From a virus: a DNA stretch of 63,320 nt. Within the stretch, counting starts at the first letter, position 1. Each line of letters starts with the position of its first letter. Below, piece after piece: positions 20,476 to 20,910 of this stretch. The stretch spans positions 1 to 63,320 of IMG/VR virus record IMGVR_UViG_3300023178_000048; one strand, 5' to 3'. The position numbers were made by a program, and so were the translations under genes. The notes under the pieces were generated by a model, which saw only the letters and a list, made by a program, of their open reading frames with translations, did not search any database and was not told the DNA's origin.

Positions 20476-20910
20476 CAAAATCAGCCTTGTTCCAGCGATG
20501 TTCTGCATTTGTTCCAATTTTCGGATATGGCGTGGAACAAGAATTTCCAGGTTTTATGCGGCTTCCAGCGATTCTGTTCCGTTGTTCCACGATTTTTAGG
20601 TATTACATGACTTTTTTAAAAATTAAACCTGATCGTTCGACAGCATATTGCGTTGCAAATCAGCAAATTGAATTTTCCAGCCATACCCTGAAAATCGTGG
20701 AACAACGGAACAGAAGTATTATATATATTATATTATTATTACTCTCTCTCCTCTATTTTAACACTTTTCAACCTAAATTAAAACCTTTACTCTTACAAAA
20801 ATCTTGTTCCATCTGTTCCAAGTAATACCACCCCGAAATGGAACAACGGAACAAAACCGAGTTCCCCGCTAGACAAACCCTGCCGTCCTATCCCAAAATA
20901 GTTACATAAT
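20476..20910. other. AT-rich noncoding region with iterons, candidate replication origin
   Basis: No supported gene in about 570 bp (20460-21031). A 15-bp motif TGGAACAACGGAACA occurs at 20698-20712 and 20839-20853 and inverted at 20575-20589. A degenerate pair TTGTTCCATCTGTTCCA is at 20804-20820, and single GTTCC boxes are at 20489, 20511 and (inverted) 20534. The outer copies form a perfect inverted repeat with 25-bp arms (20572-20596 and 20691-20715). An extremely AT-rich stretch (20714-20805) with a CTCTCTCTCC tract lies between iterons. This is the layout of a replication origin; a centromere or operator array is the alternative. Confidence 0.6.

Follow-up and report, generated by a model that had tools for sequence, protein, structure and literature searches.

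A conserved array of inverted TGGAACA boxes as a likely replication origin in a family of mostly uncultured phages

Genomic setting of the element

The window, by which we mean the whole stretch of DNA analysed, is a virus record of 63,320 bases. Its ends overlap over 135 nt, positions 1-135 and 63186-63320 being identical at 134/135 nt with a single mismatch, and because of this overlap we take the assembly to be a complete circular genome of ~63.2 kb. Terminase, portal, capsid and tail genes are present, together with a replication module composed of a DNA polymerase A (32380..34335, + strand), a PD-(D/E)XK exonuclease, an SNF2-type helicase (35698..37281, +) and a 969-aa DUF927 primase-helicase (38916..41825, +).

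The element studied here (20488-20853, 366 bp) sits between two + strand genes, the first ending at 20325 and the second starting at 21032. The upstream gene (19708..20325, +) encodes a protein of ~200 aa, reads toward the element and is found at the same place in relatives. It is closed by a terminator-like hairpin (20335..20361, +), downstream of which the element lies. A mechanical TTG ORF overlapping the element (20487-20825) received no support. TerS is located at 17144-17704.

Other features of the neighbourhood deserve mention. The genes at 18909-19547 and 19708-20325 are neighbouring paralogues (37% identity) of unknown function, and members of this family in relatives often read toward the element. 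A triad of genes at 23420-26695, whose function in these phages is unknown, encodes a 303-aa protein, which we take to be DUF3150-like, an AAA ATPase (phrog_1297) and a DUF2201/VWA protein; in ~60 loci, the genes of the 303-aa protein and of the ATPase are kept downstream of the element. The window also contains 13 copies, at no more than one mismatch, of a hairpin GTCAGA-N4-TCTGAC for which 0.05 are expected (19657, 20442, 20989, 21685, 22321, 23197, 23833, 24334, 25648, 26008, 32101, 33587 and 47024). Five of these hairpins end 18-36 nt upstream of the early start codons 19708, 21032, 21721, 22357 and 24367, and four relatives (L139, L115, L273 and L135) carry a different hairpin at a like place. 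It might be a control element of the early genes, its role being unknown.

Anatomy of the box array

Half of the TGGAACA/TGTTCCA heptamers of the whole genome (8/16) fall within the 366 bp of the element, compared to at most 3 per 366 bp in 300 dinucleotide shuffles of the window. A box-blind detector, which calls inverted pairs of tandem hexamers of any sequence, had this element as its sole call in the window and made no call in 100 shuffles of it. These results show that the box array is clustered far beyond chance and unique in the complete genome.

The core of the element is an inverted pair of 8-bp-period dimers, TGTTCCgtTGTTCCA / TGGAACAacGGAACA, 108 bp apart. The inner left dimer, TGTTCCGTTGTTCCA, occupies 20575..20589 (- strand) and the inner right dimer, TGGAACAACGGAACA, 20698..20712 (+). 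Layout and approximate length of the 108 bp between them (20590..20697) are conserved in relatives, while the sequence is mostly not. Just outside the right dimer lies an AT tract, TATTATATATATTATATTATTATTA (20717..20741), a candidate unwinding element whose position is also conserved. Further boxes extend on both sides: single outer TGGAACA boxes at 20488..20494 (-), 20510..20516 (-) and 20533..20539 (+), an outer inverted dimer TGTTCCATCTGTTCCA with a 9-bp period (20805..20820, -), an outer dimer TGGAACAACGGAACA (20839..20853, +) and a half site GGAACA (20957..20962, +).

Most of what a preliminary description had claimed from the sequence alone was confirmed. The three exact 15-bp copies, one of them inverted, are the two inner dimers and the outer + strand dimer; the degenerate fourth copy is the 9-bp-period inverted dimer, and the additional half sites are as described, with single boxes at 20488, 20510 and 20533 and a half site at 20957. 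The perfect 25-bp inverted repeat with its 94-nt spacer exists and is contained in 29-nt arms (20572-20600/20687-20715, 97% complementary, 86 nt between them). The region is indeed gene-free and between transcription units. The stretch of 90 bp described as AT-only-like held only in part: it is real, but shorter and not AT-only. The lowest-GC 100 bp of the window, starting at 20709, have 22% GC, and the A/T-only run is limited to ~25 nt (20717-20741).

A perfect IHF consensus, WATCAANNNNTTR, is absent from the window element (20400-21050), as is a run of four trinucleotides of the TAA/TAG type. GC skew, suggested in the same description as a check, placed the minima 1.3-3.2 kb from the element in 8/8 genomes; since they coincide with the gene-strand switch, GC skew is not independent evidence. 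Third-codon skew did not track replication arms. Separately, GATCGTT and motifs resembling TTTTGCGAGTGCAAAA lie between the inner dimers in some cores (L086, L091 and the window at 20630-20660), and the core motif GATCGTT..TTGCGAGTGCAAAA is present in some relatives only. Such motifs could conceivably be a priming or host-factor site.

The layout is conserved without sequence similarity

Over the element region, the sequence is identical in two further records of the same phage. Relatives found via their polymerase (~60% identity) have the same design without alignable DNA, in the order scattered boxes, TGTTCCAnTGTTCCA, ~110 bp, TGGAACAnTGGAACA, AT tract and further boxes. In a collection scan, the inverted-dimer layout was present in at least 119 viral contigs and in 9 bacterial contigs; a back-of-envelope estimate gives a chance expectation of ~1e-4 such matches in either collection. 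Conservation of the layout is thereby shown. Of 107 distinct elements, 105 have dimers with an 8-bp period; inner gaps span 93 to 143 bp (median 109).

AT content is raised in the ~60 bp immediately outside one dimer (mean 0.72-0.84 vs ~0.6 elsewhere). This side was picked by its AT content, so that part of the excess results from selection. Terminase orientation was unselected, and the AT-rich side faces away from the small terminase gene in 60/69 cases. At the far end of the AT tract (right flank), an IHF-like AAWCAAnnACTTA is found in 30/67 elements vs 1/4307 background windows, and TAA/TAG-type trinucleotide runs in 18/67 elements vs 3/4307.

The genome position of the element is kept in relatives. 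In the window's own family, it is flanked by the ~200-aa gene that reads toward it and by the early genes, TerS/TerL being located farther out. Of 131 loci, 90 have TerS and 86 have TerL at a distance of ~1.6-2.2 kb, always reading away from the element. The detector called no element in cultured phages with a related TerL or primase (DSL-LC04, HTVC027P, Rollin and RHph_TM27A), parts of some of these records remaining unsearched; positions 1-20000 of RHph_TM27A were inspected by hexamer density, plus one intergenic region by eye. A cluster of TGGAACC in one locus (L133) was rejected as a long low-complexity repeat without the element layout.

The element accompanies primase-helicase modules

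The layout is also linked to primase-helicase genes in unrelated phages and prophages, and this linkage is shown. In several bacterial contigs (Lactococcus, Tropicimonas, Pseudoruegeria and Bryobacterales/Acidobacteria) and in one 214-kb viral contig, the element is 80-210 bp from a VapE, D5/DUF5906 or Prim-Pol/DUF5906 gene. In the Lactococcus contig the primase-helicase gene beside the element is followed by a polymerase-like gene; in the 214-kb contig the element is also beside SNF2 and VRR-NUC genes. A homologue of the AEP/DUF927 primase was found in 19/26 and 9/24 element-bearing records (28/50), most of the records without one being short. Three of the loci beside VapE/D5 genes (L162, L266 and L269) form a subtype in which the AT tract is inside the core and the outer boxes differ, as in Streptococcus thermophilus phage Sfi21 and unlike the window subtype.

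Boxes of an array switch together

Relatives devoid of TGGAACA carry the same layout with TGGAATT, TGGAACC, AGAACA or TGTGCA boxes; scans retrieved 28 contigs with the TGGAAT version and 3 with the TGTGCA version. On the primase tree the TGGAAT version arises three times (as TGGAATT in two clades and as TGGAATA in a third), and the arrays switched to TGGAACC, AGAACA and TGTGCA once each. In all cases the box changes as a whole array and the layout stays. That the boxes of an array change together points to a phage-encoded protein reading them.

A candidate initiator and its residue 928

The preliminary description had called for an initiator binding the repeats. The candidate that we retain is the AEP primase/DUF927 helicase encoded at 38916-41825, for which no binding data exist. 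It matches Pfam DUF927 (3.6e-22), and its profile matches only two solved proteins in the PDB, the SCCmec Cch helicase (5dgk, 2.4e-23) and SaPIBov1 Rep (8tch, 9.2e-22), over the helicase and the C-terminal region. The N-terminus of the predicted model (pLDDT 85) matches the PrimPol fold, and Foldseek returned the same two proteins, Cch and SaPIBov1 Rep, as best hits (E 1.1e-15 and 3.1e-19 reported). The protein is thus homologous to these helicases, in sequence and in fold, over the helicase and C-terminal region. DUF927 helicases have been grouped with Cch and SaPIBov1 Rep before (PMC10061031).

To relate protein and box, 38 primase-helicases with known boxes were aligned over 1189 columns. 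A single column separates the two main versions: residue 928 is Arg in 25/25 TGGAAC phages and Gln, His or Asn in 10/10 TGGAAT phages. Gln is found in one TGGAAT clade, His in the second and Asn in the third, a distant clade aligning at just 23-24% identity. Random clade triples reached a separating column in 2/1053 draws. The column was first noticed by eye, and the all-column scan, the random-clade control and the protein controls came afterwards. The signal emerged only once any non-Arg residue was allowed; for one residue shared across the TGGAATT clades of the primase, nothing was found beyond other clade pairs. Nine further TGGAACA records all have Arg928. There was no new box switch for a blind test, since the element is missing from the contigs whose boxes are unknown. 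Covariation between box position 6 and residue 928 is shown for the sequences at hand.

In the window, the Arg928 codon is at 41697-41699 (+), within a C-terminal winged-helix-like domain (41448..41822, +) proposed to be the box reader. The residue directly follows the first strand of a helix-helix-strand-strand domain resembling a winged helix. Fold matches of this domain alone are weak, the best being Cch (E 0.059) and other winged helices not being significant. Arg facing G and Gln or Asn facing A are textbook pairings. From homology, linkage and the covariation of residue 928, we infer that this primase-helicase is likely the initiator that reads the boxes.

It is possible that the box switch follows an unknown partner instead of the primase-helicase. 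Residue 928 accounts for box position 6 only, because the AGAACA and TGTGCA phages retain Arg928 and Lys takes its place in the TGGAACC phage. As controls, eight further shared proteins were examined (polymerase, SNF2, TerS, TerL, the early ATPase, its 303-aa neighbour and two more), some with few sequences. In none of them did a column hold a residue conserved among the TGGAAC phages but missing from the TGGAAT phages.

Discussion

The element as a probable replication origin

The preliminary description had interpreted the element as a replication origin, and our results support this reading: the element is very likely the origin of the phage, although replication and binding are inferred, without experimental data. 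An array of operators at non-origin places in relatives, which would have refuted that interpretation, is the opposite of what was observed. The layout keeps its position, recurs beside primase-helicase genes in unrelated phages and prophages and matches the experimentally studied origin of Sfi21.

In the mechanism that we propose, several copies of the primase-helicase would bind the TGGAACA boxes via the C-terminal winged-helix-like domain, and the two inverted inner dimers would place two opposed complexes ~110 bp apart. The adjacent AT tract would then melt, in many relatives with the aid of an IHF-like bend; the helicase would load on the opened strands, and the primase domain would make primers to be extended by the phage DNA polymerase A. 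That the protein binds, that the tract melts and that the helicase loads is inferred, as is the order of events.

A bolder reading, to which we lean without firm commitment, is that a large environmental phage family shares one origin architecture with an exchangeable box word. The whole array of ~10 boxes would have been exchanged several times in independent events, and every C-to-T change at box position 6 would be accompanied by a switch from Arg928 to Gln, His or Asn in the winged-helix-like domain of the initiator.

Alternative functions

Besides an origin, the element could be a repressor operator array, where a phage regulator on the boxes controls the early-gene promoter (21032 onward) and perhaps the left gene too. 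The element is between two + strand transcription units, a promoter-like run can be seen by eye at ~20914-20943, and operators can be arrays. Against this, the AT tract, IHF-like site and inverted dimers compose an origin-like layout, unrelated prophages have the element directly beside primase-helicase genes, the Sfi21 origin is a match for it, a promoter scan barely exceeds shuffles, and no regulator was found with residues tracking the box. We judge this explanation very unlikely as a replacement for the origin reading; the two are not exclusive, because an origin may have a part in regulating transcription as well.

A packaging (pac/cos) site bound by the small terminase is likewise very unlikely. 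The proximity of TerS and TerL, reading away, would favour it. However, the same layout is found beside VapE/D5 primases without nearby terminase (Lactococcus, Tropicimonas and Acidobacteria contigs), neither TerS nor TerL has a column tracking the box, and the Sfi21 counterpart is an origin.

The two remaining possibilities are all but excluded. Inverted box arrays occur at partition (centromere-like) and recombination sites, but there is no ParB-like or recombinase gene beside the window element, for the families searched, and replication genes accompany it in genetic elements that are unrelated. A structured RNA or DNA hairpin formed by the 29-nt arms could be the functional object, as the fold of the single strand is much stronger than that of shuffled sequences (z = -8), but relatives keep the boxes as double-stranded repeats, with outer boxes beyond any stem, and share little of the arm and core sequence; Rfam matches are only sub-threshold and implausible.

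Significance of a likely origin with exchangeable boxes

Taking the element as an origin, part of the picture is already known: initiator-box origins read by a primase-helicase are described for P4, SaPI and Sfi21. In the open-access literature searched, TGGAACA is not paired with a phage origin (subscription papers were outside the search), and relative to that literature it is new that one layout is conserved throughout a family of mostly uncultured phages, that boxes are exchanged in concert and that a single residue of the likely initiator tracks the exchange.

The origins of uncultured phages are mostly unknown, and they cannot be found by sequence similarity because the origin DNA is not conserved. 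As the layout is conserved and the box is not, a box-blind detector can find origins in metagenomes. A likely initiator can moreover be named for phages with an AEP/DUF927 primase-helicase. How specificity co-changes between an initiator and a many-site origin is a long-standing question, and concerted switches together with one tracking residue make it testable with natural proteins and boxes. If the bolder reading were true, metagenomes would reveal a natural code by which a primase-helicase initiator recognises its origin, and one origin type would extend across phages of Proteobacteria, Firmicutes and Acidobacteria.

Comparison with known origins

Many relatives resemble bacterial oriC in having boxes, a TAA/TAG-type trinucleotide AT tract beside the nearest box, comparable to the DnaA-trio-type motif (PMC10797057), and an IHF-like site. 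The window differs from oriC in that its boxes, judged by their TGGAACA sequence alone, are not DnaA boxes, and in that the phage itself encodes the proposed initiator. The resemblance in trinucleotides could be a coincidence.

SaPIBov1 Rep and SCCmec Cch are homologous to the window protein, which differs in carrying a fused AEP primase at its N-terminus. SaPI origins contain iterons together with an AT-rich region. In satellite phage P4, the gene of the primase-helicase (alpha protein) is beside annotated type 1 repeats at ori and crr, in tandem and inverted groups (TGTTCACC type). Alpha is known to bind type 1 repeats. P4 differs from the window in its box, spacing and core length (9-11 bp periods) and in having two cis regions; the strict box-blind detector does not call it, and it is a looser parallel than Sfi21.

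A closer counterpart is Sfi21, whose 302-bp non-coding region (PER element) is reported to function on its own as an origin of replication (PMC6356513 citing Foley et al. 1998). Run on 13.7 kb of Sfi21, the box-blind detector called one place, inside this annotated 302-bp origin, where TAGTTACTTAGTTAC ... GTAACTAAGTAACTA are arranged around an AT tract; the match between the two layouts is therefore shown. Like the window element, the Sfi21 origin has inverted 8-bp-period dimers (AGTTAC/GTAACT boxes), outer boxes and an AT tract. Unlike it, the box sequence is different, the core is ~70 bp with the AT tract inside, and primase and helicase are on separate genes. The Sfi21 origin also directly follows its D5/DUF5906 helicase gene, while the window element is 18 kb from the primase-helicase gene. 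Because of this distance, and because its AT tract is outside the inner pair, we regard the window element as one that would work like a Sfi21-type origin rather than as a member of that type.
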